64,000 bases of DNA from Nitrospira sp. GTDB taxonomy: Bacteria > Nitrospirota > Nitrospiria > Nitrospirales > Nitrospiraceae. The stretch's first letter is position 1; the number at the start of each line of letters is the position of its first letter. The stretch covers positions 1 through 64,000 of the forward strand of contig JADLEJ010000034.1 of NCBI GenBank assembly GCA_020846195.1. Direction: 5' to 3'. The notes under the pieces were generated by a model. It saw only the letters and a list, made by a program, of their open reading frames with translations. It did no database searches and had not been told where the DNA came from. Made by a program: the position numbers and the translations under genes. Below are positions 24,729-64,000 of this stretch, piece by piece.

Positions 24729-27548
24729 CTAGAATTCCTCGAAGTCGTCGTCTTTTCTCCGGCGGTCATGCCCGTTGCCGGCCGCCACGCCGACGGGCGT
24801 TTTCGCGGCAGAGGGCTTGGGTGCGAACGCCGGCTTTTTCAGCACCGGTTTCGCGGAAGCTGCCGGAGCGGAAGGTTTGTCCGCAGGTCTTGTGGCGGCG
24901 CTGGGCTGTCCTCCCGTCAAGGTCTTAAACACTTCGACCTGGGACATCAGCTCTTTGGCCTGATCTTTCATCGACTGGCTGGCCGAGGTGGTTTCTTCCA
25001 CCAGCGCCGCGTTCTGCTGGGTCGTTTCATCCATCTGCATGATGGCCTTATTGACCTGATCGATGCCGCTGGCCTGCTCCTGCGATGCAGCGGTGATCTC
25101 GGCGATGATATCCGTGACGCGTTTCACGGAGCTGACGATTTCTTCCAGCGTTTTGCCGGACTGATTGACCAGTTCGCTGCCGTCAGAGACACGCTGGATG
25201 GACTCATTGATGAGCCCCTTGATTTCCTTGGCTGCTGTAGCGGATCGTTGCGCCAGGTTGCGCACTTCCGCGGCGACGACTGCAAAGCCCCGGCCATGCT
25301 CCCCTGCCCGGGCCGCTTCGACAGCGGCATTCAAGGCCAGCAAGTTGGTCTGGAAGGCAATTTCATCGATCACCGTGATGATGTCGGCGATCTTCTTGCT
25401 GCTCTTGTTGATTTCGCCCATGGCCTCCACCGCTCGAACGGTAACCGACCCGCCTTTATCCGCGATGTCCCGCGCGGTAATCGCCAGCTGATTCGCTTGC
25501 TTGGCATTGTCGGCGTTTTGCTTCACCGTCGAGGTCATTTCCTCCATTGACGCGCTGGTCTCTTCGAGCGACGAAGCCTGTTCGCTTGTGCGTTGCGAGA
25601 GATCCTCATTTCCCTTGGTGATCTGCTCGGCGCCGGCAGTGACGCTCTCCGCCGCTTCTCGAACCGTGGACAGGGCCACACTCAGTGTCTGAGTGGCTCC
25701 GTTCAAACTAGTTTTCATTTGATCGAACTCGCCATTATATTCCCCGGTCATTTGCTTCGTGAGATCGTTCGCCGCCATGGCGGTCAGCACCATTTGAGCT
25801 TCGTGCAGCGGCGCGACCACGGCATCCAGCATCTTGTTGATGCCTTCCGACAGGACTTTAAAAAATCCATCGAACTCGGCCGCATTGATCCGTTCCGAGA
25901 GCTGGCCGGCTGCGGCGGCGTTGATCAGTTTATCCACTTCGCCTTGAGCCTTTTTCTGCGCCGAGATATCGGCCCATTCGAGCGTGTTGCCAAGATATTC
26001 GCCGGCCTCAGACACAATGGCGCTCACAGTGAGAGACAGCGTCAACGGCCCCAGCGCAATTTCTGCCCGATGGGGAAGATTTTTAGGATCCGACAGGACG
26101 CGACGTTGCAAGTCTGGCGTCTTATGGAAGGAGTCGATGCAAACGCCGACGATTTTGTCGGCATTGAAAGCAGGCAAGACTTTCCGGATTTCACTCTCCA
26201 AGGTTTTCAACCGACCGGAGGCCGCCTTATTGATATAGGTGATCGTCAAGTTGCGATCGCACATGAGCACGTTGCTCGTGGAGTTGTCCAATGAATTTTT
26301 CAGCGTCGTCATTTCTCGGTCCAGCCGCCGCTTGGTGGTGACATCGGACCACTCCAGCGAGTTGCCGAGATATTCGCCTTTTTCAGAGATGATCGCGGCC
26401 ACGTTAAGTTCAAGCGTCAGCGGGCCAAGCTGGATGTCGGCTTTGTGGGGCAAGTTTTTGGGGTTTCCGAGGATCTGCCGCTGGTGAGACGGCACTTTAT
26501 GGAATCCGTCGATGCAGGTGCCCACAATCTTGTCGGCATTGAAGTTCGGCATGACCTTGCGAATTTCGTTTTCAAGGGCCTTGAGTTTGTCTTGCGCGGC
26601 TTTATTGATGTAAGTGATGATCAGTGCGCGATCGCACATGAGCACGTTGGAGCTGGAGTTGTCCATCGCGCTTTTGACCAGAGCTTTCTTTTTGTCCTCA
26701 GTCACGTCCGAGGCAAACTTGACGACTTTGCACGGTTTGCCACTGGCATTCACAATCGGGTTATAGGACGCCTGAATCCAGACTTCTTTGCCGCCTTTGC
26801 CAAGACGCTTATATACCCCCGCTTCAAATTCTCCACGATTGAGCTTATCCCAAAAAGTCTGGTATTCGAGGCTGTTGGTGTACGCCGGGTCGCAGAACAT
26901 CCGATGATGTTTGCCCTTGATTTCATCCAGGGTATATCCAAGGGTATTGAGAAAGTTTTCGTTGGCTTCGATCACTGTGCCATCGAGATTGAACTCGATC
27001 ACAGCCTGCACGCGATCGAGGGCCTCGACCTTTGCGCGAAGATCGTTGATGTCCGCTTTGCCCTTGGGTTTTTTCACGATAGTGGTCTTGCCTTTGCCCA
27101 TGGTCGTTCCTCCTTGTTGGATTGGCGCCGGACGCGTGGCCGCTTCGCGGGCGCCCTCCAGCATGATCTGCGCGATAGTGTTGAGTGCATCGGTCCAGGC
27201 TTGCTTCACGTCTGAAGTCCAGGCGGCTCCAGCCAGGTCTCCCATGACACCGAGTAATGTTTCCGCCACGGCGCCGTAGTGACCCGGCTGAGTTCCATAT
27301 CCGACGTGCCGGGCGCCCAGTTGTTTCAACGCCGGGCCCAGCGTGTCGGGGCGCCGCAGGTTTTGCACCACGAGCACCAGGGACGCCAGCAGCTTCTTTT
27401 TCTGTTCGCTCAACGTGGTCTTGGCGAACATCGGCCGGATCGCCGGATAGTTCTCGAACAGCCGGTCGTAAAACAGGCTGACCAAGGTTTCTGCCTGAGG
27501 TTTCAATAACTCGAAGCTCTGTTCAAGAAGTTCTACATTCAGTCCCAT
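24729..27548 (-). CDS. Globin-PAS-methyl-accepting chemotaxis fusion protein
   Basis: A 939-residue protein with no obvious membrane helix. Residues 1-140 are a globin of the flavohemoglobin/single-domain type: B10 region LFYDRLF, CD1 Phe in RPMF and proximal His H81 in ARHVGYG. A PAS domain (~165-275, FNLDGTVIEANENFLNTLGYT) and two similar PAS-like repeats (each with SNVLMCDR and ITYINKAA, ~290-405 and ~415-535) follow. The C-terminus is an MCP signalling domain with the hairpin tip [35 protein letters not shown] (over 20 residues in total at ~750-785). ATG 27548 was chosen over TTG 27566. A perfect internal AAGGAGG and ATG at 27101 could yield a globin-less form. The likely input is oxygen, NO or redox state. 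Confidence 0.9.
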   Translation of the reverse strand: MGLNVELLEQSFELLKPQAETLVSLFYDRLFENYPAIRPMFAKTTLSEQKKKLLASLVLVVQNLRRPDTLGPALKQLGARHVGYGTQPGHYGAVAETLLGVMGDLAGAAWTSDVKQAWTDALNTIAQIMLEGAREAATRPAPIQQGGTTMGKGKTTIVKKPKGKADINDLRAKVEALDRVQAVIEFNLDGTVIEANENFLNTLGYTLDEIKGKHHRMFCDPAYTNSLEYQTFWDKLNRGEFEAGVYKRLGKGGKEVWIQASYNPIVNASGKPCKVVKFASDVTEDKKKALVKSAMDNSSSNVLMCDRALIITYINKAAQDKLKALENEIRKVMPNFNADKIVGTCIDGFHKVPSHQRQILGNPKNLPHKADIQLGPLTLELNVAAIISEKGEYLGNSLEWSDVTTKRRLDREMTTLKNSLDNSTSNVLMCDRNLTITYINKAASGRLKTLESEIRKVLPAFNADKIVGVCIDSFHKTPDLQRRVLSDPKNLPHRAEIALGPLTLSLTVSAIVSEAGEYLGNTLEWADISAQKKAQGEVDKLINAAAAGQLSERINAAEFDGFFKVLSEGINKMLDAVVAPLHEAQMVLTAMAANDLTKQMTGEYNGEFDQMKTSLNGATQTLSVALSTVREAAESVTAGAEQITKGNEDLSQRTSEQASSLEETSASMEEMTSTVKQNADNAKQANQLAITARDIADKGGSVTVRAVEAMGEINKSSKKIADIITVIDEIAFQTNLLALNAAVEAARAGEHGRGFAVVAAEVRNLAQRSATAAKEIKGLINESIQRVSDGSELVNQSGKTLEEIVSSVKRVTDIIAEITAASQEQASGIDQVNKAIMQMDETTQQNAALVEETTSASQSMKDQAKELMSQVEVFKTLTGGQPSAATRPADKPSAPAASAKPVLKKPAFAPKPSAAKTPVGVAAGNGHDRRRKDDDFEEF

Positions 27549-27574
27549 GTCGTGCGCCCCTTCCAACCTGGTGG

Positions 27575-51051: not shown

Positions 51052-51879
51052 TTACCTCTGCAGCAAGGCCAAGGCCTGTTGCGGAAGGTTGTTGGCCTGG
51101 GCCAGCACCGAAATGCCGGTTTGCACCAGGATCTGATTCTTGGTGAACACCGCCGTTTCATGGGCGATATCCGCGTCGCGGATGCGCGATTCCGCGGCGG
51201 TGAGGTTTTCACCCGTCACCTGGAGATTCGCAATGGTCGCCTCGAATCGGTTCTGAATCGAACCGTATTCGGCGCGAGCGGTGGCGATAGCGCTGATCGC
51301 GTTATCGATATTGGCCAGCGCGCTCGTGGCATTCGCCGAGGTGGACACGTTCACCGAGCTGAGCCCCAGCGACGATGTCGTGATGTCGTTCAAATTCAGG
51401 GTTTGGGCATTGCCCGCTCCGCTCCGGAAGCCGATCGCGATCGAGAAGCTGATCGTGCTGCCGCTGGTCAACGCCTGGCCGTTGAATTCCGTGACCTGTG
51501 CAATACGGTCGATTTCCGACCGCAGCGCCACGAATTCCTGGTCGATGTACGACCGTTCGGTGTTGCCGACCGTGCCGCTGGCCGATTGGGAGGACAATTC
51601 GCGAAGACGCGACAACAGGTTGCCGATCGTCGCCGCGGCGCCGTCGGCGATCTGCGTCAAGCTGATGCCGTCCGAAGAGTTCCGGACCGATTGATTGATG
51701 CTGCGGATCTGCGCCCGCAAGGATTCGGACAATCCGAGACCGGCGGCATCGTCCGCGGCTCGGGTGATCCGAAGACCGGATGAAAGGCGCTCGACCGAGC
51801 GGCCTAACTGATCGGAACTGACCGACAAATTCCGCTGAGCGGAAATCGATGCCGGGTTGTTGTTAATAATTAATGCCAT
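51052..51879 (-). CDS. fliC: Flagellin
   Basis: A 275-residue flagellin. The N-terminal D0/D1 region (MALIINNNPASISAQRNL, LSSGLRITRAADDAAGLGLSESLRAQIRS) and C-terminal region (AESRIRDADIAHETAVFTKNQILVQTGISVLAQANNLPQQALALL) are fully conserved. Only ~70 residues lie between them, so the surface D2/D3 domains are essentially missing. That middle part is Ser/Thr-rich (NDITTSSLGLSSVNVSTSAN), offering O-glycosylation sites. AAGGAGG precedes ATG 51879, and a sigma-28 promoter lies ~100 bases upstream. Confidence 0.97.
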   Translation of the reverse strand: MALIINNNPASISAQRNLSVSSDQLGRSVERLSSGLRITRAADDAAGLGLSESLRAQIRSINQSVRNSSDGISLTQIADGAAATIGNLLSRLRELSSQSASGTVGNTERSYIDQEFVALRSEIDRIAQVTEFNGQALTSGSTISFSIAIGFRSGAGNAQTLNLNDITTSSLGLSSVNVSTSANATSALANIDNAISAIATARAEYGSIQNRFEATIANLQVTGENLTAAESRIRDADIAHETAVFTKNQILVQTGISVLAQANNLPQQALALLQR

Positions 51880-52076: not shown

Positions 52077-52595
52077 CTAGGGCTGCAACCGGGGCGCAAG
52101 CTCATATTCAAGAAGATCCGCCATGCGAATGAAATCTCGCTGCGCGCGCGCCTCCAATAGCGCCTGCACCCAGGGAGTCATCGCGCGGTCGGGATGCCTC
52201 GTTGCCGGTTTGGATTCCACCAGCTCTAGATAGTCGGCCAGTTTGCCGAGCCAGGCGTCCAGGACCGTGAGCCGCTCGTCTCCCATGCGGATCTGCACGG
52301 TGATCTCCTGCGCTTCCTTGTGAAGGAGGTCGGCATAGTGCTGAATGGTCGAGGCGGCGCCGCGCATCACCTCATCCATCGTTTGAGAAACGGCTTGAAG
52401 ATGTGCAAACCGCGCGACAGGCTCGCCCAAGAAGGCCGAATCCAAATCGCGATCCGTAATAGTGCGCTGATCCACGGTCAAGGATGTGATCAGGCGCGCG
52501 CGCGCATGGGCTTTCTCGCTGATATCCGCCAGCACCTCGCCAAGGCTGAGCGCGTCGACGACATCCCACTGATCTTGATCGAGCATGACATGCAT
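52077..52595 (-). CDS. Unknown helical protein upstream of flagellin
   Basis: A 172-residue, mostly helical protein with no signal or membrane segment (FAHLQAVSQTMDEVMRGAASTIQHYADLLHKEAQEITVQIRMGDERL). ATG 52595 has GGAG upstream. I recognise no family. It is last in the glycosyltransferase run and first before flagellin, so a role in flagellin handling or modification is possible from context only. The C-terminal segment RAQRDFIRMADLLEYELAPRL is reminiscent of chaperone-like or FliS/FliT-like helices. Confidence 0.65.
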   Translation of the reverse strand: MHVMLDQDQWDVVDALSLGEVLADISEKAHARARLITSLTVDQRTITDRDLDSAFLGEPVARFAHLQAVSQTMDEVMRGAASTIQHYADLLHKEAQEITVQIRMGDERLTVLDAWLGKLADYLELVESKPATRHPDRAMTPWVQALLEARAQRDFIRMADLLEYELAPRLQP

Positions 52596-52642: not shown

Positions 52643-54319
52643 CTATCCTGAATGGGCGGCTGAAGAGCCTGTAAACATCGGCACTCGCCGCGCGCCAGCT
52701 TTTGACGGTCTCTGCGTGAGGTGCCGATGGATCTCTGTCAGATGCCGTCTCCACTGCCGGTAGGCCAGCGCATGATGCCGGGCCATGCGATCCAGCCCCC
52801 TGACATGATCGTGATGAATCGCGCGCATGAACGACGCCGTGGCTGGAGAACTCGCAATATGAGCCATCCCCAGCTGTACGGCCTGTTCACGCAATGCCGT
52901 TTGCTCCCGTTGAAGCGCCTGCAGCGAGCCGGGCGACCGGGTAGCCTGCGCGGCCGCCTGCACAATGGCGTCGGCTTGACGGCACAGTCTGTCGATCTCC
53001 GGCATCATGCCGGCCAAATGGCGCGCTGAGACCGCGGCATTCTGAGGCACCGTCGGATCCGCTGGAATATGGCTGGCAGTATGGGTCAGCGTCTCATACC
53101 AATAGCGTCTCCAATACCGGCTATACCAGTCTAGATCCGACGACTCAGCCGTTCCTACCGCGCAATAGCTGCCCAGTCCGTCTTCATCGACAGACGATCG
53201 ATAGAGCCGGTAGCCTGGCGCATCTATGGGGCAGTCTCCCTTGGCCAGCACATGCAGCAGCACATCCGCCACCATCGTCACGGGCAAGCGATCCTTGCAG
53301 CTGTGATGCGCGCACACTTGGTCGAATCCGCAGGGAGCGCATTCCAGCTCCGGCTGCACAACCCAATGTCCCGCTCCATAGGGGCCAGTCTCTCGAAAGT
53401 CCACATGTCCGACGGAGAGATCGACCACGGGCACCTGCACGCCAACGGCCAAATGCATCGGGCCGGTATCGTTAGTGAGGAGCAGACGGCATTCCGCAAG
53501 CAAGCCCGCCAATTGCTCCACCGTCGTGTGTCCTGCCGCATTGAGGACGGGGTTGCGCCCCCCGGCCTCCCGATACACACCGAGCACCTGTGCGATCGTG
53601 TCCTGCTCGGCCGGAGTGCCGATGAGGACAATGCCGCCGTTCCAGCGCGCGCTCAAGTGTGCCAGCGTGCGTCCAAAATGTTCTGGCCGCCAGGCCTTCA
53701 TCGCATCGCTTGCCCCGGCTTGCACGGCAATCCACTCGTGGGGCTTGTCCGGCGTAGCACTGAGAAACCGTTTCGCCCAGTCGCGGGCCTCCGGTGTCAC
53801 GCGCACCGACAAGGGCGCGTGCGCGCCAGGCCCACTTCCTCCTAAGGCATAGACATCGACGAGATTGAAGCGGTTCAATGCGCGGAAATGATGCATGTCG
53901 GTAAAATAAGCCATCCAGGGATTCTCGATCACGCTCTCCCCGTCCCAGGCGCATCGCGCGCCGCGGATATCGGACGCGCCGATGTAGGACGCCAGTAACG
54001 CGCTCGAACGATTGAAGGTGAGATTGATGAGGCGATGGTAGTGTCGCTCTGCCAAGGGGCGAGCCCAGGCGGCGAGGTCCGCATAGAGCGCCGTCGCGCT
54101 CTTGACGGCCGCGCGGCTGTCGTCGATCAAGGCGTGAAAATCGTACGCGATAATGTCCCGGAGTCCCGGCAGCAAGGAAGCGACGGCGGCAAACCGGCGG
54201 TCGATAACTACATCGACGGCCACGCCAGGCCATTCTTCTTGCAGCCTGGACAACAAGGTCCCCATTTGGACCAAGTCGCCCATCCGCGTAATGTTGAGGA
54301 TCAGCACCTGCCGGTTCAT
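52643..54319 (-). CDS. GT9-family glycosyltransferase with C-terminal helical extension
   Basis: A 558-residue protein. Residues 1-370 form a heptosyltransferase-like GT9 (LILNITRMGDLVQMGTLLSRL; IAVQAGASDAMKAWRPEHFG; LLLTNDTGPMHLAVGVQVPVVDL). The remaining ~190 residues are an extra helical region with no recognised motif. Given the flagellin neighbourhood it probably transfers sugar in filament glycosylation rather than lipopolysaccharide core synthesis. It overlaps the next upstream gene by four bases. Confidence 0.85.
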   Translation of the reverse strand: MNRQVLILNITRMGDLVQMGTLLSRLQEEWPGVAVDVVIDRRFAAVASLLPGLRDIIAYDFHALIDDSRAAVKSATALYADLAAWARPLAERHYHRLINLTFNRSSALLASYIGASDIRGARCAWDGESVIENPWMAYFTDMHHFRALNRFNLVDVYALGGSGPGAHAPLSVRVTPEARDWAKRFLSATPDKPHEWIAVQAGASDAMKAWRPEHFGRTLAHLSARWNGGIVLIGTPAEQDTIAQVLGVYREAGGRNPVLNAAGHTTVEQLAGLLAECRLLLTNDTGPMHLAVGVQVPVVDLSVGHVDFRETGPYGAGHWVVQPELECAPCGFDQVCAHHSCKDRLPVTMVADVLLHVLAKGDCPIDAPGYRLYRSSVDEDGLGSYCAVGTAESSDLDWYSRYWRRYWYETLTHTASHIPADPTVPQNAAVSARHLAGMMPEIDRLCRQADAIVQAAAQATRSPGSLQALQREQTALREQAVQLGMAHIASSPATASFMRAIHHDHVRGLDRMARHHALAYRQWRRHLTEIHRHLTQRPSKAGARRVPMFTGSSAAHSG

Positions 54320-56133
54320 ACCAAGTCCCTGGTTTCCGTCCGATAACTTTCCAGCATGAGAATCAGCAAGTCTTCGCGGCTCAGCTCTGTGCGGGGCCCG
54401 CGGGCGCGAATCTGCGCGGCCAAATCCTTCAGTTCAACCCGTTGATCGGGTGCAAATTGGCGCAGCATCGGAGCCAGTTCAGGCGGTGTCGTCGTGTGCG
54501 AGGCCAGCGCTTCCGCCGTTCGCTCCCCACGCAAAATCGACCCCAACCGATCCGGTTCCCGCAGACCTAATTCTGACAGCAGATCCTTCATGCGATGCTC
54601 GTAGGTATGCTGCCGCACGACTCGCTGACGGGCCGCGTCGGCAATGGTCCGGCGGCCAACCGGATCGCGCAGCCAGGTTCTGATTAGTGAGGGCACTTCG
54701 TCGGTGCCTTCAAAACTCACGATCTCCTCTTCGGTAAAACACTCAGGCAGGAGCGCGCGCTGATCGACCAATTGAAAGGCGCCCGCCGCGGCCAGTTCAA
54801 ACGTGCGGGGATTCACAAAGTCCGCCGCCGGGTCCATCCCTTCACCGGTATGCGAGTGGAGATTCAGATTGATGGCGGTCGCGTTAAACACTTTGAGACA
54901 GGTCTCCGTGTCGATCCGCGCGCCATTCCGTTGCAAGACCGGCGCAAGCGCATCGGCGCCGTCCCATTCGTTCCCCCACACCTTGAAGGTCCAGTCTTTG
55001 CCAATCCAGCGAGGCAGCAGCGTGCGTCGATTGGCGTAGCCGGCGCCGACAAACGACACATCCGATCCGAATTCCAGCTGGTCGTTCATCGTCAAAGTCA
55101 GCGGGCGATGCACGGATGGATCGGCGGCCATGGGAAGGTAGCTCACATGAGGCGCGCCGGCGCGACGGAGCGCCTCGTGGCAGTCTTTCTGCTGAATGGT
55201 GAACCAATAGTCGTATCCGGGAGCGAGTTGCTGCCAGTACGTCAAGTGCCGGTAGTTTTCCACAAACCACATGGCCGTCATGAATTTTTTTCGGCGGAGA
55301 TGCTCTAGTGCCCCAAGCGACATCGGGGCTTGTGCCATGGCCAGCACCAGATCGGGCGGATCTTCCGAAAGCTCCGTCAAGGTGCCCATGCTAAGCACAT
55401 CCGCCAGCCGGCTTTGCATCGAGAGACGATGGCGGGGGTCGCGGAACTGGTTGAAGCGCTCATAGCTGGCATGATGGATACTATGGTCGATCCAACTGAC
55501 CCGATGACCGAGCGCTTCCAAGGCCCGCACGACATATCCCGTAATCGGCAATGAGCCGCCATAAATCGGGCCCACAACCGCCACATGCAGGCGGCCATGC
55601 TGGCGCGCCGCCAGGAGCCGGCGCAGTTCGCCATCGAGGGCCTGATGCTGCGTCGCATAGGGACGCGCCGCCGGGGCATAGGTGAAACAGCGAAGCGGGG
55701 CCGATTTGGACGCAAGTTGCGTCGCCATGTCGTCGATGTTTCCCCAAATCCATTCGATCGCGTTTAGCCAGGGACCCAACGGGCGCGCGGCCAGGGCATC
55801 CTTGAACGCAGCGATGTCGGCAATCACAACGGCCAGTCGAGCGCCCGCCGGCTTCGATGCGAATAACGCCTCGATGTGATAGAGCAGCCCCACGCCGAAC
55901 ACCACTCCCAATTCACCGGTGCGCCATTCCTTAGTTTGCAGAGCGGCCCATGCCTGAGCGTCTTTTCTCGGATCGTAGGCACTGTGAATCCATTGTCCGC
56001 CTTGCGTGGCGGATGGACTGCCTTCTCGAGACGGTGCGACCGAGAGCACGCCTCCAGAACTGCCCGTGACCGCGGAGACCAACTCAGGAAAAGTCTTTCG
56101 AATACCGTCCAGATGTGTCTGTAGAAGATTCAT
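54316..56133 (-). CDS. Maf-N-like / CgeB-type glycosyltransferase fusion
   Basis: A 605-residue protein. Residues ~35-160 (WIHSAYDPRKDAQAW, LGVVFGVGLLYHIEALF) resemble the N-terminal domain of Maf flagellin glycosyltransferases. From ~185 on it is a CgeB/Glyco_trans_1_2-type GT-B enzyme (VAVVGPIYGGSLPITGYVVRALEALGH, VSFVGAGYANRRTLLP, NPRTFELAAAGAFQLVDQRALL). Transfer of nonulosonic acid or another sugar to flagellin is a reasonable inference. ATG 56133 has AAGGAATC; the frame extends to 56241 without support. Confidence 0.82.
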   Translation of the reverse strand: MNLLQTHLDGIRKTFPELVSAVTGSSGGVLSVAPSREGSPSATQGGQWIHSAYDPRKDAQAWAALQTKEWRTGELGVVFGVGLLYHIEALFASKPAGARLAVVIADIAAFKDALAARPLGPWLNAIEWIWGNIDDMATQLASKSAPLRCFTYAPAARPYATQHQALDGELRRLLAARQHGRLHVAVVGPIYGGSLPITGYVVRALEALGHRVSWIDHSIHHASYERFNQFRDPRHRLSMQSRLADVLSMGTLTELSEDPPDLVLAMAQAPMSLGALEHLRRKKFMTAMWFVENYRHLTYWQQLAPGYDYWFTIQQKDCHEALRRAGAPHVSYLPMAADPSVHRPLTLTMNDQLEFGSDVSFVGAGYANRRTLLPRWIGKDWTFKVWGNEWDGADALAPVLQRNGARIDTETCLKVFNATAINLNLHSHTGEGMDPAADFVNPRTFELAAAGAFQLVDQRALLPECFTEEEIVSFEGTDEVPSLIRTWLRDPVGRRTIADAARQRVVRQHTYEHRMKDLLSELGLREPDRLGSILRGERTAEALASHTTTPPELAPMLRQFAPDQRVELKDLAAQIRARGPRTELSREDLLILMLESYRTETRDLV

Positions 56134-56140
56134 CGATTCC

Positions 56141-57316
56141 TTATGCCGGCATCGGCTGCGACAGTTCATGCCAGAGGGCTTCACGTTCCTGAGGCGGCGC
56201 CGAGGATTGTCCGGCTTCGCTATAGTAGGTGCCCCATTCATCCGTATGACTGGTCCACGATGCCCAGTGAGTCTGTGTGCGAGGAGACTGGTTCAGCAAT
56301 ACGTCTAACGACGGCTCGATAGGCCATGTCGCCGGAACTGCAGGACTGCCGTCGTCGCTCTGGGCTTGCCAAATACGGTGGCCGGAACCATACGGGCCAG
56401 TCTCGTGAACCCGGGCGCGCGCGAAATACCACCCAAGAGCCGGCGTGCCAACCGCGGCAGCCAAATGCAATGGGCCAGTATCCGCGCCAATCGCGTACTG
56501 ACAACGGGTGAGCACATGGGCCAGCTCGTGTATCGTGGTCTGTCCCGTGATGTCCCAAATGCGCCCGAGAATCGAGGGCGGCAGCGTATGCTGAATATCG
56601 CGCGCGCGGTCGCATTCCGTTCCCTGCCCGAGTAAGACGACGCGGCCTCGTGGGAGTACCGCCAGAAACCGCACAATCCATGCGCGCCAGACATCGACGG
56701 GAACGAGCCTGGCCGGATCCCCTGCTCCGACAACCAATCCGATCCATGGCCCGCCGCCTTGTCCGATTTGCTCCAGATTGCGCGAGGGAACAACCAGCGG
56801 GGTTAAACAACGCGACGGTATCCCAGGAGGGGTCAGTCCGCACATGCCGCAAAACGCATCCGATAAATGAATGCGGTTCGACCGGCGCGTCCGCGCAATC
56901 TCCCGCACATAGGCGGCCCAGGGCGTCAACTGCTCGCTGAGCGGCCCTTGCGCCAGCGGGCCGACAGACTCCTGCGCCAGCAGCGCGCCGGCGACAATGG
57001 CGCGGGTATGCTGATTGAGAACGAATGCCCGGTCATAGCGGTGCGGACAGAGCGCGGCGAGCTCCTGCTCGATTTCCTTCCGCTGGTCCGGCTGCATTCC
57101 TTGCGCGGCCCGCGCCGCCCAGCGATGCCATCGGGCCCCATCCCATCCGATCACTCGGTCGAGCCCGGGAATCAGCGTGCCAAGATCCCGAAGCGGCTCG
57201 GGACAGAGCAGATCGATGGTCTCGCGGGGGCGCTGCTTGCGCAAAGCGGCAATCATCGGCATCGTTTGCACGAGATCGCCGAGTCGCGCCAGTTGTATGA
57301 CAAGGGTTCTGGACAT
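56141..57316 (-). CDS. GT9-family glycosyltransferase
   Basis: A 391-residue GT9 protein: TLVIQLARLGDLVQTMPMIAAL at the start, WIGLVVGAGDPARLVPVDVWRAWI mid-way, and CQYAIGADTGPLHLAAAVGTPALGWYF. It is a second, shorter relative of the protein at 52643 and lacks its helical extension. It starts 6 bases after the giant gene ends and precedes the Maf-like gene by 7 bases, so all are in one operon. Confidence 0.87.
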   Translation of the reverse strand: MSRTLVIQLARLGDLVQTMPMIAALRKQRPRETIDLLCPEPLRDLGTLIPGLDRVIGWDGARWHRWAARAAQGMQPDQRKEIEQELAALCPHRYDRAFVLNQHTRAIVAGALLAQESVGPLAQGPLSEQLTPWAAYVREIARTRRSNRIHLSDAFCGMCGLTPPGIPSRCLTPLVVPSRNLEQIGQGGGPWIGLVVGAGDPARLVPVDVWRAWIVRFLAVLPRGRVVLLGQGTECDRARDIQHTLPPSILGRIWDITGQTTIHELAHVLTRCQYAIGADTGPLHLAAAVGTPALGWYFARARVHETGPYGSGHRIWQAQSDDGSPAVPATWPIEPSLDVLLNQSPRTQTHWASWTSHTDEWGTYYSEAGQSSAPPQEREALWHELSQPMPA

Positions 57317-57322
57317 GCTGTT

Positions 57323-60300
57323 CTACGCGTTGGCCGCATCCATCGCGAAGGCCCGTTCTTTGGCGGCAATGGCCTGCCCGAGTTCAATCAGTCCTTCATA
57401 GGTGGGAGCCAGCGCGCAGAGCTGATCGTATTCCTGGCGCGACACCTCCAGCCGGTCGGCTCGCAGGAGCACGCCGGCGTACGCAAACTTGACGGACAAG
57501 TCGCTGGGGTTCCGCGCCAGATAGTTCTGCAGCTGCACGCTTAACTCGCGCCAGCGGTTTTGAGCGGTCCCCGCCCGCAGCAGCCAATGAATCACCTCGG
57601 CGTCATCGGGATTTTCCGCGAGAACTCGAAGAAAAGTCTGCCAGGCTCCCTGCGGATAGGCGCGTCCCATCGACGCCATGCCAATGCCCATGAGGCATTT
57701 CTTGCGGGTGGCGCCATGATTGAGCGCAGTGGTAAAGGCGATTTCCGCTTCGCGATATTGTTCCCGCTGCATATGGAGGATCGCCCGAAGCAGCAGCGCT
57801 TCCGCATGGGTCGGATAGCGTGTGAGCAACGCGTCTACGCGTGTCGACGCCATTGAGAGCTGGCCGCCGGCGAGCGCGGCGCGAATTTCTTCCAGCTCGC
57901 GAAAGGCGGGATCCGCGAGGTCTTCGATCCGGCGTAAATAGTCCCCGGCAATGCTGGGCAGCGCCATGGCTGCCGCCACGGATGCTGCCCATTCCAGAAG
58001 AGACGGGTCGGCGGGCCACTCCGCATACCGTTTCAAGAGTGTCTCCACCGCCGCCATGTCTTGGTTATGCGCCGCACGCTGCATAGCAGAGACCAGGTCC
58101 CAGGCCTGCCGCTCTTCGGGGTTATCGATCAGATGGAGCCGATACGACCGGAAGCCGTTCTTATCGACGCCGACGGCTTTATAGCCATCCTCGGCGTAGA
58201 TGCCGTCATCGTCGGCTAGCCACCAACAGCGGCCCCAGCGCTGATGCAAGCGGCCGGCATTGGCTTGGTCGTGATCTTTTCGGCCCGGCGTTTGACTTTC
58301 CAAGTGATAGAGCACGCTCCGCGGCTGGTAGACAATGCGGCCGCGCTTCTCTCGCACCTTGAGGCAAAGATCGATATCTTCAAACCCATTGCGGAAGCCT
58401 TCGTCGAACCCGCCGAGTTCCGCAAAGACTGAACGGCGGATCAGAAGGCAAGCAGCGGTGACCGCGTTCAGTTCCCGCCGTTTATTGACGGCCGGATGGT
58501 CGGCGGCAAACCCATTATAGATATGGTACGGCGTCAGATTGTGCCGGTCGATAGCCACGCCTGCATGTTGCACTGTGCCGTTCTGGTACAGCAGTTTGCT
58601 GCCCACGACGGCAACGTCGGGATTGGCCTTCACTTCTTCGACCAATGCGCTCAGCCATCCCTTCAGTGGAATCGTATCGTTGTTCAGAAAGACGAGATAC
58701 TCGCCGCTGGCCACGGACGCGCCCTGGTTGCAGGCTTTGGCAAACCCAAGATTGTCGTCGTTGCTGATGATTCGGACATCGCCACCCAGCGACGCGAGAA
58801 ATGCAGGCGTCCCGTCCGTCGAATGATTGTCGACGACGATCAGTTCGAACGAGACCTCTTCCGTTGCCGGGCCGAGGGCAATCAGGCACTGCCGAGTCAG
58901 TTCGAGCTTGTTCCATACAGGGATGACGATGGAACAGGTAAAGCGCTTCGGGGCATGGGTGCGTTTCAGATCCTTGAGGCGGGTCTGCTGTCCGTCGAAT
59001 ACAGCGGGGTACTTGGCCGCATAGGGTGCATATTTGCGATAGATAATTTCCGTGGTCCGGAGAAAGATTTCCCGGGATTGGCTGCTCATCGAAGAACCGT
59101 CGCCGCGCCAGGTGAATTCGGCCGTGGTCTTGGGGATATGCACAAACGGATAGCGGGTGGCCATGCGAATCCAGAGATCCCAATCCTCATGCACAAAGAG
59201 ACTCTCGTCGAAGCCGCCGACGTCATCCAAGCAGGTCCGCGCATGCATGACGCAGAGCACGGGAATGTAATTGGCGATGAGGAGCTGATGCGGGTTGAAC
59301 TCGTCTCCATACGGCTGATCGCGGCGGATTTCCGAGATCGTCTCGCCGGTGATCTGTTCATGGACGCGCCAGGCATCGGTATAGGCCACTTTGCACTCGC
59401 CGGTCTCTAACTGAGCCACGAGTGTGCGGAGATGATCTGGGAGAAAGCGGTCGTCGTCGTCGAGGTAGCACACATATGTTCCAGTGGCATGACGGAGACC
59501 GGTGTTGCGCGAGGCCGCCAGCCCTTTGTTCCGGTCATGGTTGATCAGGGTAATGCGCCCACCATGATCGACGGCGGCAATCACCGGCTCGACCGGCATG
59601 GCGCCGTCGTTGACCACAATGATCTGGAAGTCTCTGTACTCTTGATCGAGCACGCTGGCCAGCGCCGTCCGGAGCCGGTCGGGCCGATTGTATGTCGGGA
59701 TAATAACCGTGACCATGGGCGCGCGATTGATCGTCTGGCGCTGGATGCGGGAATCCGCCGCGGCCCTCTGCGCGACCCAGACCTGGTAGATCGGCAGCAG
59801 ATTCATCGTCTTTAAGTCATGTGGCGTGGGTGTTGGAATGTAGCGCAGTTTCGGAACCTCGACATAGATCCGTTCCAGTCCCAACGGAGTCAGCCCCTGG
59901 GCGATAAAATATTCTTCGAGGCGCTGTTCGGTGATCCAATCCTCGACGGGCTGGCAAGGGGGCGCGATCGTCTTCCACTGTTCCCACATTTCTCCCCTGG
60001 GAGTAGTGAGAACGACATACCCATCCGGAGTCAGCAGTCGTGTCAGCTCTTCCAGGAATGCCCGCTTCTGCGGATCTGGCACATGTTCGATGACTTCGGA
60101 GCAGAGCACGACATCGTAGGGGGCAAAGTCTGGCCGTCTCAGGACGGTCTCGGCCGTGCCTGCCTCGAAGCGAATGTGAGGAAACATCTTGCGGGCGTGT
60201 TCGATGACTCCCGCCACCGGCTCGACACCTTCAACAGTCCCATATTGCGAGGCCAGATTGCTTAACCAACCCCGTCCGCAGCCAACCTCAAGGATGCGGA

Positions 60301-63300
60301 GCGTGCCGTTGGGATGAGCCATCTTGAACCGGCGGAGGATGTGCTCCATGAAGCCAGCGATTTTCGACCATCGAGCGGATTCGTCGTGATTGGGCTCGGG
60401 TGTGGACCAGGCCGGGCTCTTCACAAACATCTCGACATAAAACTGATCCTGATTCATTCGATCCTCTTGTGCGGATGTGGCATCGATGTGCGTGGACAGT
60501 GATGCAGCAGACGGAGCGCCCGACTCAGTGCGCGCTTGTAATGGGTCCGGACGTGGCGCGTGGCTCTGCGGCGATGGCGACGAAACGGTCATGAACGAAC
60601 GAAAGCGGGCCCGCAGATCGTCGCGTGTGCGGGCCAGCGTGTCTGGAGTCTCGAAGGAGGTGGACAGCCGGCCGGTCTCGATCAACTCGATCCATCCAGC
60701 CAGAACGGATTCCCATTGAAAGCAGCTCGTCCAATGACGGTGCCCGGCCTGCGCCAACTCGGCGCAATAATCCGGACGGGCCATCAACACCTCAATAGCG
60801 TTGCGAAACTCTTGCAACGGCAGGACAAGCCCGCCGGCTTGCTCCGTGGCCGTGCCACAGCCTGAGGTTGCGAGCCAGGGCCGCTGCATGCTCATCGCCT
60901 CCAAAATACAGAGCGGCGAGACTTCGGCATCGGACGCGAGGACGACGAGATTCGCAGCATGAATCGCGGCGGCCACGCCTGCTCGATCGAGCCCCGGAAT
61001 GTACAGCACGTCCGGCCTGGTCGAAAGCGCCTGTTGCACTTCCGCAATGTATTCAGTGTCGTGTGTCGAGTGCCCCACAAGTACCAGCCTAGCGCGTGGC
61101 GGCAATGATGTCAGCGCGCTGAGCAGGCCCAGGTGATTCTTGACTCGATACAAGTTGGCGACATGCACGATAAGAAAGTGATCGTCTGCAATCTCGTACC
61201 GTTCTCTAAAGTTGAAGGCTGGGCGGAGCAAGGCCGTCCCATTCGGAATGACCGTAACCGAGTGACCAAGTTCTCGGCAGCAGCGGGCATCGAAGGTGTC
61301 CTGTCCAAGCGCAATGACGGCCGTGGTTTGTTGGATTAATTGTTTTAAGAGCCCGGCGACGACCGGTCGTTCCTGAATGAAGTCGTACCCCTCTCGGTTC
61401 ACCGTTGGTTGAAACAGAATGCGTCGTTGCTTCAAATCCTGCAGCTCGAGAATGGCATAGAAGATTCTATTGACGGGCGAGCCCAGCAGAATGCAGGCAT
61501 CGTAGAGATTCGACGCGACACACTGCTTCACTTGAACGGCCGCGGCCGGCGCGCCGTTAATCACGCGGTCCGGGGGGGCCAGTTGAATGATGTCGATGCC
61601 CCGGTGGCGCGCCATCGTTCGGTCGGCCTGTTCATAGCAGGCCACCGTGACTCGATAGCCTGCGGCAATAAGCCCGGCACCCAGATCCTCCGCCACGGTT
61701 TCGACTCCACCGACCGATGGCCAAAAATAGGGTGTCACGATCAGCACATGGCCTGGAGCATCGGCGCGCTGCGAGGGTATTCCGGCATGCGGCCTATGCG
61801 GCTGTTGTACGGGCGGTGTTGCGCCAGCTGCTTCGACGGACGCTGACTCAACAATCCATTGGACTTGCTCGAACGGAATCGGAGGATTGCGCAGTGGCGC
61901 TGCAGCGAAGCTGGCATCGTAGGGTTGGGACAGCGGCGGCGAATCGGTGAGGAGCCGCCCGAACACGTCCAGTTCTTTCAAATTATACGCGCGCGCGTCT
62001 TTTTCACGGTCCGGAACGCGCGGAGCCTCAATGATGCCATGCGCCGCTCCAAGCAGCGCGAATAATTGCACGATGTCTCCGGTCTCGCGAAACTTGACGG
62101 CTTTGCGATGCATGTCCGCCGTCAAGACATTCCACTGCAGAATGTCCTTCTCATACATCGTTTTATAGCGCCGGTAGATGCTTGCAGGCGTGTAGGCCGT
62201 GCCGTGGCGCCCAAGAACATCCGGATGAAGAATCCAGCGAATCCCCTGCTCCCCCATCTGATCGAGCAGATTCATTTCGCTGGCCTTGAGATCTTGAAAC
62301 GACAGCCGCTTCAATAAAGCGGTGCGATATATTTTGACGCCTTGAATCTGGCATTCCCGGTCTTCGTCGTACAGATGAAAGCAGACCATGCCGACCGTCT
62401 CGGGGGCCTTCCGCATAAGGCGTTCCATCGTGGCGACGGCATCGGGATTGAGCATCATGTCTTCATCGACTTGGATGAAAAACTCGGTGTTGCAATCCAC
62501 GATCATTTTCTGAGCCGCGGCGCTGAAAGGGCTGACGTTGCGGATGATGTCCAGCTTGAACGGCGGCCCTTCTTGCTGGCGCAGCGCATCCAGGCAGGAT
62601 GGAAATACCGGATCGTCCACCGTAAGGACATAGACCGTCGTGGATGCGGATGCCGCAGAAACAGGAACGGGCGCTGCTGTGGCAGGCGCGACGGCCAGAA
62701 CCGGTTCTGAAACCGTCTCGATGCCGTAGTCCGGCTGCCGGCCGCTGTCAATCCAGTCGAGAGTCTGCCGAATTCGAATCTCGGCGGTATGGTAGCGTTG
62801 AATCTTGGCTTGAGCGGCACGAGCGATGCGGTCGGCCAGGGGCTGGTCCTGCACAAGCCGTTCGAGCATGCCGGCCAGGACAGCCGGATCGTCTTTGGAG
62901 AACGTGAGGATTTCCACGCCTTCTTCAAAGAGCTGTGCATTTCGAGGACGATTGGAAATCGCCCAGGTCACGATGGGACGGCCCGCCGCCATGCCTTCCA
63001 AAACGCGCCCGCCGTAGAACTTGGCCAGGCTCGGCAAATTCACAATTGCCGCCCAATCGGACAAGCGCTCCATCCAGTCCGTAAACTCGGCGGCACGAAT
63101 CTCCTTCAATTTGTGGACGTATTGCTTGAACATGCTCTCCGGCACCGGGCTCCCATTTCGAAGCAGATCCTGCGCCGCCAGTTGCAAGCGGTCGAACAAC
63201 TGTTGCGTTGGCGTCGGCGGCGATGCGGGCAGCGCAAACGTCAGATGCTGTTGCAGCAGAGGATGTTGAATCCATTGCTGCCGTGGGCCGTACGGCGTTC

Positions 63301-63856
63301 CATGAAACACCCCCCGATTGAACCGCGGCGCGCCGGTGGGAGAGGCGATGAAACGTCCTGGCACCATTTGCGGCCACCAGAGCGTCGGTTTCACCAGCCG
63401 ATCATTTAAATCCGAGGCGTCCAGCTCGTCGGGAGCGAGCACATGGGTCATGGCCCCGATTTGCTTTTCCACTTCGATCCGGCGCAGCCGCAGGTATGGC
63501 GCCCAGGCATAATCCTCTTCATCGTAGGTTTGGGACTCCATGAGAATCCCCACGCGCACTGGAGCCAGTTCCGCAAGCCATTCCAATGTCTCTTGGTCCA
63601 GAGGCGAGTGAACCAGCCAGACCCAGACCTGGTCGAACCTGCGCCCGTTCAGCCAGCGTTTGGCATGGGCGATCCACGAGTGCGGAGCCTGACAGGGCAC
63701 GTCGGCGATGATCGGCACGGTGACGCACTCGAATCCAGCCGCCTCGAGTCCTTCACGGACGGCGAAATTCCACGAGTACGTCCAGGGACGGGCCTGCGCC
63801 CAGTTGGGAAACTCCAGCTGGAGAAGAAGCGCTGTGGGATGCGGTGTGCGACTCAT
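57323..63856 (-). CDS. Giant multidomain glycosyltransferase-methyltransferase protein
   Basis: A 2,177-residue protein from ATG 63856 (GAGGAC upstream). In order, with rough residues: CgeB-like GT-B domain 1-390; GT2-like domain 405-650 (YVLTVDDPVFPSCLDAL, QVDEDMMLNPDAV); GT4 domain 700-1085 (VLIVTPYFWPSVGGVETVAEDL); SAM methyltransferase 1135-1360 (ILEVGCGRGWLSNLA); GT2 1378-1600 (VTVIIPTYNRPDRL, CYLDDDDRFLPD); GT2 1635-1900 (CSIVIPVWNKLELT, FLNNDTIPLKGW); TPR-like repeats 1940-2177. Linkers are Ala/Pro/Ser-rich. It could build and methylate a whole glycan in one chain, with the TPRs binding the acceptor. Flagellin is the obvious candidate acceptor. An AGAGGATCGA-ATG at 60457 could start a shorter product before the methyltransferase. 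Confidence 0.88.
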   Translation of the reverse strand: MSRTPHPTALLLQLEFPNWAQARPWTYSWNFAVREGLEAAGFECVTVPIIADVPCQAPHSWIAHAKRWLNGRRFDQVWVWLVHSPLDQETLEWLAELAPVRVGILMESQTYDEEDYAWAPYLRLRRIEVEKQIGAMTHVLAPDELDASDLNDRLVKPTLWWPQMVPGRFIASPTGAPRFNRGVFHGTPYGPRQQWIQHPLLQQHLTFALPASPPTPTQQLFDRLQLAAQDLLRNGSPVPESMFKQYVHKLKEIRAAEFTDWMERLSDWAAIVNLPSLAKFYGGRVLEGMAAGRPIVTWAISNRPRNAQLFEEGVEILTFSKDDPAVLAGMLERLVQDQPLADRIARAAQAKIQRYHTAEIRIRQTLDWIDSGRQPDYGIETVSEPVLAVAPATAAPVPVSAASASTTVYVLTVDDPVFPSCLDALRQQEGPPFKLDIIRNVSPFSAAAQKMIVDCNTEFFIQVDEDMMLNPDAVATMERLMRKAPETVGMVCFHLYDEDRECQIQGVKIYRTALLKRLSFQDLKASEMNLLDQMGEQGIRWILHPDVLGRHGTAYTPASIYRRYKTMYEKDILQWNVLTADMHRKAVKFRETGDIVQLFALLGAAHGIIEAPRVPDREKDARAYNLKELDVFGRLLTDSPPLSQPYDASFAAAPLRNPPIPFEQVQWIVESASVEAAGATPPVQQPHRPHAGIPSQRADAPGHVLIVTPYFWPSVGGVETVAEDLGAGLIAAGYRVTVACYEQADRTMARHRGIDIIQLAPPDRVINGAPAAAVQVKQCVASNLYDACILLGSPVNRIFYAILELQDLKQRRILFQPTVNREGYDFIQERPVVAGLLKQLIQQTTAVIALGQDTFDARCCRELGHSVTVIPNGTALLRPAFNFRERYEIADDHFLIVHVANLYRVKNHLGLLSALTSLPPRARLVLVGHSTHDTEYIAEVQQALSTRPDVLYIPGLDRAGVAAAIHAANLVVLASDAEVSPLCILEAMSMQRPWLATSGCGTATEQAGGLVLPLQEFRNAIEVLMARPDYCAELAQAGHRHWTSCFQWESVLAGWIELIETGRLSTSFETPDTLARTRDDLRARFRSFMTVSSPSPQSHAPRPDPLQARTESGAPSAASLSTHIDATSAQEDRMNQDQFYVEMFVKSPAWSTPEPNHDESARWSKIAGFMEHILRRFKMAHPNGTLRILEVGCGRGWLSNLASQYGTVEGVEPVAGVIEHARKMFPHIRFEAGTAETVLRRPDFAPYDVVLCSEVIEHVPDPQKRAFLEELTRLLTPDGYVVLTTPRGEMWEQWKTIAPPCQPVEDWITEQRLEEYFIAQGLTPLGLERIYVEVPKLRYIPTPTPHDLKTMNLLPIYQVWVAQRAAADSRIQRQTINRAPMVTVIIPTYNRPDRLRTALASVLDQEYRDFQIIVVNDGAMPVEPVIAAVDHGGRITLINHDRNKGLAASRNTGLRHATGTYVCYLDDDDRFLPDHLRTLVAQLETGECKVAYTDAWRVHEQITGETISEIRRDQPYGDEFNPHQLLIANYIPVLCVMHARTCLDDVGGFDESLFVHEDWDLWIRMATRYPFVHIPKTTAEFTWRGDGSSMSSQSREIFLRTTEIIYRKYAPYAAKYPAVFDGQQTRLKDLKRTHAPKRFTCSIVIPVWNKLELTRQCLIALGPATEEVSFELIVVDNHSTDGTPAFLASLGGDVRIISNDDNLGFAKACNQGASVASGEYLVFLNNDTIPLKGWLSALVEEVKANPDVAVVGSKLLYQNGTVQHAGVAIDRHNLTPYHIYNGFAADHPAVNKRRELNAVTAACLLIRRSVFAELGGFDEGFRNGFEDIDLCLKVREKRGRIVYQPRSVLYHLESQTPGRKDHDQANAGRLHQRWGRCWWLADDDGIYAEDGYKAVGVDKNGFRSYRLHLIDNPEERQAWDLVSAMQRAAHNQDMAAVETLLKRYAEWPADPSLLEWAASVAAAMALPSIAGDYLRRIEDLADPAFRELEEIRAALAGGQLSMASTRVDALLTRYPTHAEALLLRAILHMQREQYREAEIAFTTALNHGATRKKCLMGIGMASMGRAYPQGAWQTFLRVLAENPDDAEVIHWLLRAGTAQNRWRELSVQLQNYLARNPSDLSVKFAYAGVLLRADRLEVSRQEYDQLCALAPTYEGLIELGQAIAAKERAFAMDAANA

Positions 63857-63881: not shown

Positions 63882-64000
63882 CTATCCGTTGGGACTCCGC
63901 GGGTCGCCAAAGTGGCCGGCTGGCGCCGCTTGCCGGCGGCCTATTTGCAGCAGCGGAATGGAACCGGCCCCCGGCGATGCCGCGCCGCCGCCCGCCAGCC
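63882..64000 (-). CDS. Possible C-terminal end of an upstream gene (partial)
   Basis: An open minus-strand frame enters from the window edge and stops at a TAG (63882-63884), 25 bases before the giant gene. The ~38 visible residues are Gly/Ala/Pro-rich with SIPLLQIGRRQAAP. They could be the end of another gene in the same operon. The stretch is too short and compositionally biased to assign. Confidence 0.3.
   Translation of the reverse strand, partial: LAGGGAASPGAGSIPLLQIGRRQAAPAGHFGDPRSPNG

Follow-up and report, generated by a model that had tools for sequence, protein, structure and literature searches.

The window analysed here is a 64,000-nucleotide stretch of a Nitrospira sp. genome (GCA_020846195.1, contig JADLEJ010000034.1, positions 1 to 64,000), and it encodes a 2,177-residue protein, hereafter the giant, in which several glycosyltransferase (GT) domains, a methyltransferase (MT) and a tetratricopeptide repeat (TPR) region are joined in one chain. 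The giant represents one version of a protein family spread through the genus, whose members keep a constant tail, a GT2 domain followed by the TPR region, and vary in the head from one close relative to another; the first-pass annotation of this DNA missed this. We consider it probable that these flagellin-locus proteins, with their constant tail and exchangeable front, dock flagellin and build and methylate a short glycan on it in the cytoplasm.

A constant tail and differing heads

The tail frame was recovered from 69 of 71 loci, and the second of two tandem GT2 domains (GT2b) and the TPR region are present wherever contig and frame reach. The frame is broken in genomes G022 and, within the TPR part, G031, and was left as pieces in both. 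Six genomes with the tail (G022, G027, G037, G038, G042 and G043) gave no usable head, and the heads of the remaining 62 fell into 17 raw clusters, merged by hand into 12 classes (truncated G053 into class 0; G073, extended G072 and G028 into class 1; truncated G061 into class 10), a merging that lowers the number of head changes. Class 0, to which the head of the window's giant belongs, is found in 20 genomes and class 1 (CgeB-MT-GT2a) in 13, with one to six genomes in each of the others; the class-4 version consists only of MT-GT2a-GT2b-TPR. Pfam analysis of 11 representatives found additional GT2s in the heads, along with several GT4s, methyltransferases of the FkbM and Methyltransf_24 families and parts of the B12-binding/radical SAM type.

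In an RpoB tree built from 52 genomes (the other ten of the 62, namely G000, G009, G014, G036, G040, G046, G049, G050, G052 and G070, had no or a partial RpoB match), the head class changes at least 27 times. The minimum possible is 10, and shuffled head labels gave a mean of 33.0, with none of 200 shuffles as low as 27; the heads therefore follow descent, loosely. Among all pairs of these 52 genomes, which are not independent of one another, the head classes disagree in 11 of the 21 with RpoB identity of at least 99.5%; the GT9, CgeB/DUF3880 and GT9 enzymes that flank the giant are as alike in pairs with different heads (87.5% identity) as in pairs sharing a head (88.3%). Heads were also compared with flanks in 14 pairs chosen by eye; for example, the flanking enzymes of G005/G007 (RpoB 99.9%) and G010/G076 (99.8%) are 91-97% alike and the heads 6-7%. 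The FliC of the window has a median identity of 87% to that of other loci (58 loci). Genome G040 carries two members, one (L106, G040:C21) of class 0 and cut by a contig end, the other (L043, G040:C2) of class 11, with several GT4s and located beside flagellin; these may represent a second copy or a mixed bin.

Six pairs, likewise chosen by eye, were compared along their DNA for identity steps. In three of these (G005/G007, G013/G016 and G018/G015), identity climbs abruptly from 57-73% to the flank level of 86-97%; this clear breakpoint lies 900-300 nt before the stop codon, inside the TPR-coding part. Upstream, where 6.5-8.8 kb were compared, no similarity was found in three of four pairs, and G013/G016 showed 6.5 kb at 95% identity. 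An in-frame difference of about 710 residues separates the giants of this pair. G013 has a GT-A-like and a GT4 domain, both missing from G016, flanked by a CgeB domain (94% identical) on one side and an MT-GT2a block (92-100% per 60 columns) on the other. GT2b and the start of the TPR region have diverged separately (40-73% per 60 columns), and at the TPR end identity is back at 93-100%. Domains have therefore been gained, lost and replaced as units.

The giant and its domains

The gene reads on the minus strand from an ATG at 63856 to a stop at 57323-57325, and the plus-strand reading of the same interval contains many stops. A longer start at a TTG at 63910, giving 2,195 residues, is possible; the ATG is favoured because the first ATG of the closest relative, L039, falls at the matching MSRT. 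A similarity search returned 679 proteins at E<=1e-3, and the best 120, which were listed, include 69 full-length relatives (query among them) of 2,100-2,230 residues aligned over their whole length, the set to which the counts of invariant positions below refer. Among the matches listed, the nearest relative shows 87% identity and comes from a contig of 3.6 Mb. The first-pass annotation had named as a possible refutation that assembly might have joined separate genes; the full-length relatives, together with the one on the 3.6-Mb contig, rule out an artefactual frame. GC content is 58-63% across 19 kb, with no step between head and tail. No membrane span was seen in the giant, since no 19-residue stretch exceeds a Kyte-Doolittle value of 1.49.

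From N- to C-terminus, the giant comprises a CgeB-type GT-B domain, a diverged GT-A-like domain, a GT4, a methyltransferase, two GT2 domains (GT2a and GT2b) and the TPR region (Table 1). Pfam cut-offs were passed for Glyco_trans_1_2 (CgeB type), Glyco_trans_1_4 (GT4), Methyltransf_23 and, in two stretches, GT2. TPR families scored below the cut-off (best TPR_19, 22.7 bits vs 25), and the TPR call is supported by the structure model, which shows a helix-pair solenoid at residues 1913-2176. This order, as proposed in the first-pass annotation, is borne out by Pfam and the models, its suggestion that the TPR tail holds the acceptor is consistent with the modelled solenoid as a likely dock, and the several GT domains and the methyltransferase that it named have intact motifs. 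All 15 catalytic motif positions, picked after the alignment had shown their invariance, are invariant in the 69 relatives, and 425 of 2,177 columns are invariant overall.

Domain 2 (about residues 400-650) had no Pfam match even at E<=1 and is called GT-A-like. The call draws on the strand/helix order of its model, with a DED motif behind a strand, the motif being invariant in 69/69 relatives; the predicted local distance difference test (pLDDT) score is mostly 56-86 up to residue 490 and poor beyond. A stand-alone relative (P0242) matches Glycos_transf_2 at E 5.7e-4, below the cut-off. Since hhalign did not join domain 2 to GT2a or GT2b (probability 0.7 and 5.7), its probable class rests on the motif, the model and this one weak match of a relative; the fold-search rows for the giant were taken up by domain 1 and have no bearing on domain 2.

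Table 1. Coordinates of the giant, its domains and the neighbouring genes in the window.
Feature	Position	Strand	Evidence
Giant, whole gene, 2,177 aa	57323..63856	-	ORF (open reading frame), similarity search, alignment
Domain 1, CgeB-type GT-B glycosyltransferase (residues 1-385)	62702..63856	-	
Domain 2, GT-A-like (residues 400-650), DED 464-466	61907..62659	-	model, motif
Domain 3, GT4 (residues 705-1065), E-x7-E 978-986	60662..61744	-	Pfam, motif
Domain 4, S-adenosylmethionine (SAM) methyltransferase (residues 1125-1335), GxGxG 1192-1196	59852..60484	-	Pfam, model, motif
Domain 5, GT2 = GT2a (residues 1372-1625)	58982..59743	-	Pfam, model, motif
Domain 6, GT2 = GT2b (residues 1632-1885), first half of constant tail	58202..58963	-	Pfam, tail comparison, tail profile
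Domain 7, TPR solenoid (residues 1890-2177), end of constant tail	57326..58189	-	model, DNA comparison
GT9 enzyme a, starts 6 bp after the giant's stop	56141..57316	-	Pfam, locus comparison
CgeB/DUF3880 glycosyltransferase	54316..56133	-	Pfam, locus comparison
GT9 enzyme b	52643..54319	-	Pfam, locus comparison
172-aa protein, no Pfam match	52077..52595	-	locus comparison
Flagellin, 275 aa; likely acceptor	51052..51879	-	Pfam, locus comparison

The flagellin locus

The association of the giant with flagellin, implied in the first-pass annotation, is borne out by co-occurrence and by a fixed place in the genome. Among 79 genomes of the genus, 68 have the tail (67 typed, plus G048, counted from pieces on contigs apart from its flagellin) and 67 have flagellin proper, among the matches listed; 66 have both, ten have neither, two have only the tail and one has only flagellin (Fisher 4.9e-10, kinship ignored). 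Tail counts and distances within the genus rest on these listed matches; the co-occurrence table and the distances inside and outside the genus were compiled by hand. G017 and G037 were counted as lacking flagellin on account of FlgL-like matches only (E 6.1e-16 and 3.0e-15). Four of the ten genomes with neither (G017, G019, G029 and G030) are rated 99% complete, and the two tail-only genomes, G037 and G053, are both fragmented drafts. In all 58 genomes with both on one contig, the tail lies 5,172-6,031 bp from flagellin on the same strand; the other 9 of the 67 typed genomes have them on separate contigs or have no flagellin match. Of 29 genomes outside the genus that match the tail, 24 have it less than 7 kb from flagellin and in the same orientation, a count from which three genomes of the same family (G157, G216 and G218), matched in the GT2 part only, were left out; the remaining five comprise three of one genus that match in the TPR part only, 11-22 kb away, one with different contigs and one without a flagellin match. 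Among cultured strains, N. moscoviensis NSP M-1 (L188; counterpart G003) carries a member of the family, 1,613 residues long and with a head of class 7, and both entries show the order giant, GT9, CgeB/DUF3880, GT9, flagellin. No methyltransferase was seen in L081, the member of class 7 that was scanned.

The one flagellated genome without the tail, G078, encodes its flagellin in a 652-residue open frame. Nearby are an 895-residue MptE-like/Maf_flag10_N/TPR protein, a BNR-repeat protein, NeuB, Epimerase_2, Polysacc_synt_2 and DegT, together with a radical SAM gene and a second MptE-like gene, a set which we take to be the known Maf and nonulosonic-acid route. A Maf route at the place expected for the giant is the best indirect sign that the two do the same job, albeit from a single case. 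The BNR-repeat (sialidase-like) gene of this locus (L105:4518-16500) sits between Maf and flagellin.

Downstream of the giant the order is GT9a, CgeB/DUF3880, GT9b, the 172-residue protein, flagellin, FlaG, FliD and FliS. GT9a and GT9b each occur in 66 of 69 loci and the CgeB/DUF3880 enzyme in 64, and this cassette keeps one order with flagellin in the 10 loci shown. Pfam of the window frames confirmed the two GT9 enzymes that the first-pass annotation had placed beside the giant; it had also described a Maf-like neighbour, an identity that is rejected here, as the enzyme at 54316..56133 matches Glyco_trans_1_2 and DUF3880 and no Maf model at E<=1. Nor was a Maf model found in 20 other window frames scanned with Pfam (part of the window). 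The open frame of the CgeB/DUF3880 enzyme reaches 56241, and its relatives align from about residue 34-36. In 59 of 69 loci the 172-residue protein has a counterpart in the interval from GT9b to flagellin (identity at least 39%, median 45%); one guess is that it is a flagellin-glycosylation adaptor or chaperone.

Upstream of the giant and beyond the window, the same genome encodes two B12-binding radical SAM proteins, two transketolase-type halves and a nucleotidyltransferase; these genes (L038:13026-19022, past the window's right end, same strand) could, as a guess, yield an unusual sugar, either C-methylated or branched. The upstream DNA of 14 representative loci gave 62 frames of at least 200 codons on the giant's strand; matched to Pfam at E<=1e-10, these included, among the 25 of 46 families shown, Epimerase (8) and GDP_Man_Dehyd (8), not told apart from each other, radical SAM (6), DegT (5), Methyltransf_25 (4) and the rhamnosyl O-methyltransferase type (2). 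By gene content, this would fit an island supplying activated sugars to the head. Elsewhere in the window, a 945-residue globin-PAS-HAMP-MCP protein (24729-27566, minus strand) is a globin-coupled chemoreceptor among the chemotaxis genes.

Known systems, mechanism and alternatives

The ingredients of the giant are known separately, from GmaR, FlmG, Maf-1 and WsaE. GmaR of Listeria is a flagellin GlcNAc transferase with TPRs that are proposed to bind flagellin (PMC9638930), and in FlmG of Caulobacter, a flagellin glycosyltransferase, the TPR part binds flagellin (PMC7591256). The giant shares with both a GT domain joined to TPRs. GmaR has, like the tail, a GT domain followed by TPRs, and the tail profile matches it at E 1.7e-7 (row 22); unlike the giant, it is described in the available text as having one GT of about 180 residues, a linker and antirepressor domains, and no head, and the giant ends in its solenoid at residue 2176, about 290 residues after GT2b vs about 460 in GmaR. 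FlmG is modular too, but the available text gives it 596 residues, an N-terminal TPR, one GT-B domain and no methyltransferase. In Maf-1, a C-terminal TPR gives flagellin specificity (told in PMC13317340); the TPR is C-terminal as in the giant, and a Maf-TPR gene stands near flagellin in G078, which lacks the giant, whereas the catalytic domain of Maf is MptE-like and concerned with nonulosonic acids. MptE-like and Maf_flag10_N were absent from the best 25 of 33 Pfam matches of the giant, the Maf of G078 being detected as a control. The GT41 (O-GlcNAc transferase, OGT) domain was likewise absent from these 25 at E<=1, and the likeness of the giant to OGT is one of analogy.

WsaE of Geobacillus has, in one chain, a methyltransferase followed by two GT domains, and adds a methyl cap (PMC2943079). 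Pfam shows the same succession in the giant, which is likened to WsaE by description; WsaE acts on a lipid-linked S-layer glycan with ABC export, and the accessible part of its account describes no TPR tail. No WsaE-named row was found among the 120 listed of 512 matches to MT-GT2a-GT2b, most rows being nameless. Chlorovirus A064R and A111/114R have three transferase domains per chain, A064R with an O-methyltransferase (PMC7826918); they are viral and smaller (A064R 638 residues), and neither TPR nor exchangeable heads are described in the available excerpts. Variable flagellin glycosylation islands occur in Enterobacteriaceae, Clostridium and Aeromonas (PMC4875605, PMC13317340, PMC7874193); as at the giant's locus, sugar genes vary at flagellar loci, and GT41 enzymes with methyltransferase domains are known from Enterobacteriaceae, but according to the available portions of these papers the variation is of separate genes, with one to three GTs per enterobacterial island. 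The tandem GT2s of the giant may recall bifunctional GT2 polymerases such as K4CP-type chondroitin synthase, whose two GT-A domains alternate on a growing chain; it is among the top Foldseek rows, but with query template modelling (TM) scores of only 0.17-0.18. The search with MT-GT2a-GT2b also brought up other long GT2 proteins (P0151, P0174, P0207 and P0211), from anammox planctomycetes (Kuenenia, Brocadia, Wunengus) and Syntrophobacterales, that bear TPRs or parts of the B12/radical SAM type. By analogy, the giant would join two known principles, a TPR flagellin dock and a multi-transferase/methyltransferase chain of the WsaE or A064R kind.

In the mechanism that we favour, the TPR solenoid would bind FliC, the likely acceptor. 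GT2b, the sole catalytic domain in every usable version, which suggests a role in the step nearest to the protein, would be followed by GT2a and the GT4, GT-A-like and CgeB-type domains, each possibly adding one further residue with sugars from the variable upstream genes; the methyltransferase would modify or cap a sugar, and the conserved GT9, CgeB/DUF3880 and GT9 neighbours may add a genus-common part. A new head would be brought in by recombination in the TPR-coding and neighbouring DNA, or the glycan would change by gain or loss of whole domains. A stricter version, with the odds somewhat against it, is a single-protein assembly line in which every head domain is responsible for adding or modifying a single residue, the glycan can be read from the domain content and species recombine heads onto an unchanging flagellin-docking tail, much as modular polyketide synthases rewrite their products.

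Several observations weigh against this mechanism. Resolution of the RpoB tree is weak (16 of 48 inner branches are starred), and on it the heads cluster more than shuffled labels do. The DNA of G010/G076 and G032/G075 shows a gradual rise to 79-86% before the stop, with the flank level reached after it, and G056/G055 shows no identity step; natural conservation at the TPR end might account for some of the rise. The catalytic roles, that is, acceptor, sugar and methyl group, are all inferred. GmaR comes only at row 22 of the tail-profile matches, with chondroitin synthase and other GT2s scoring better. The class-4 version implies that the long head is not needed by all, and it could be the GT9 and CgeB/DUF3880 neighbours, which match the tail in constancy, that initiate the glycan.

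This last point leads to an alternative in which the core glycan of flagellin is begun and completed by the cassette, leaving only variable outer residues to the giant. The cassette is present in nearly all loci, with one order relative to flagellin in the 10 shown, and its proteins stay alike where heads differ, but its three enzymes gave no TPR match in Pfam vs the solenoid in the giant's tail, and we regard this arrangement as unlikely. To a similar degree we doubt that no more than a subset of the domains is active, with a structural role for the remainder of the chain and a product of one or two sugars: domain 2 has no recognised family and class 4 does with MT-GT2a-GT2b, yet no catalytic domain shows a change in its motif residues in any of the 69 relatives, and domains are gained or lost as units.

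It is very unlikely that the giant serves a different surface glycan (O-antigen, capsule or exopolysaccharide) and has nothing but its location in common with the flagellar genes. Proteins of the MT-GT-GT and tandem GT2 kinds do make S-layer and capsule glycans (WsaE, PMC2943079), chondroitin and heparosan synthases are the top Foldseek rows, and the tail occurs without a flagellin match in the two fragmented drafts G037 and G053; the fixed place beside flagellin, the joint absence of the two and the Maf set in G078 argue against such a role. That the frame or the head differences are artefacts of assembly or binning deserves hardly any credence: most genomes are metagenome bins in many contigs, and G040 holds two different members on two contigs, but there are 69 full-length relatives, and different head classes are found in the single-contig genomes G001 (class 8), G003 (7), G039 (0) and G063 (0) as well as in G064 (class 5; 2 contigs).

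In the open-licence papers searched we came across no giant in which five GT-like domains, a methyltransferase and a likely dock form one chain, encoded at a fixed flagellar site and varied by exchange of heads on a constant tail; the papers retrieved for Nitrospira flagellin glycosylation were, by their titles, on other subjects. If the proposed mechanism is true, the domain content of a single gene would both reveal the glycan of a bacterial surface protein and allow it to be varied, and nature offers many such swaps; the Maf set of G078 and the two-GT-domain difference between G013 and G016 are natural experiments on domain content vs glycan structure. If the giant builds the flagellin glycan, domain swaps would change the coat of the flagellum, and species of Nitrospira, a genus central to nitrification, could wear different sugar coats on nearly the same flagellins, perhaps, speculatively, as a defence against phages or grazers.

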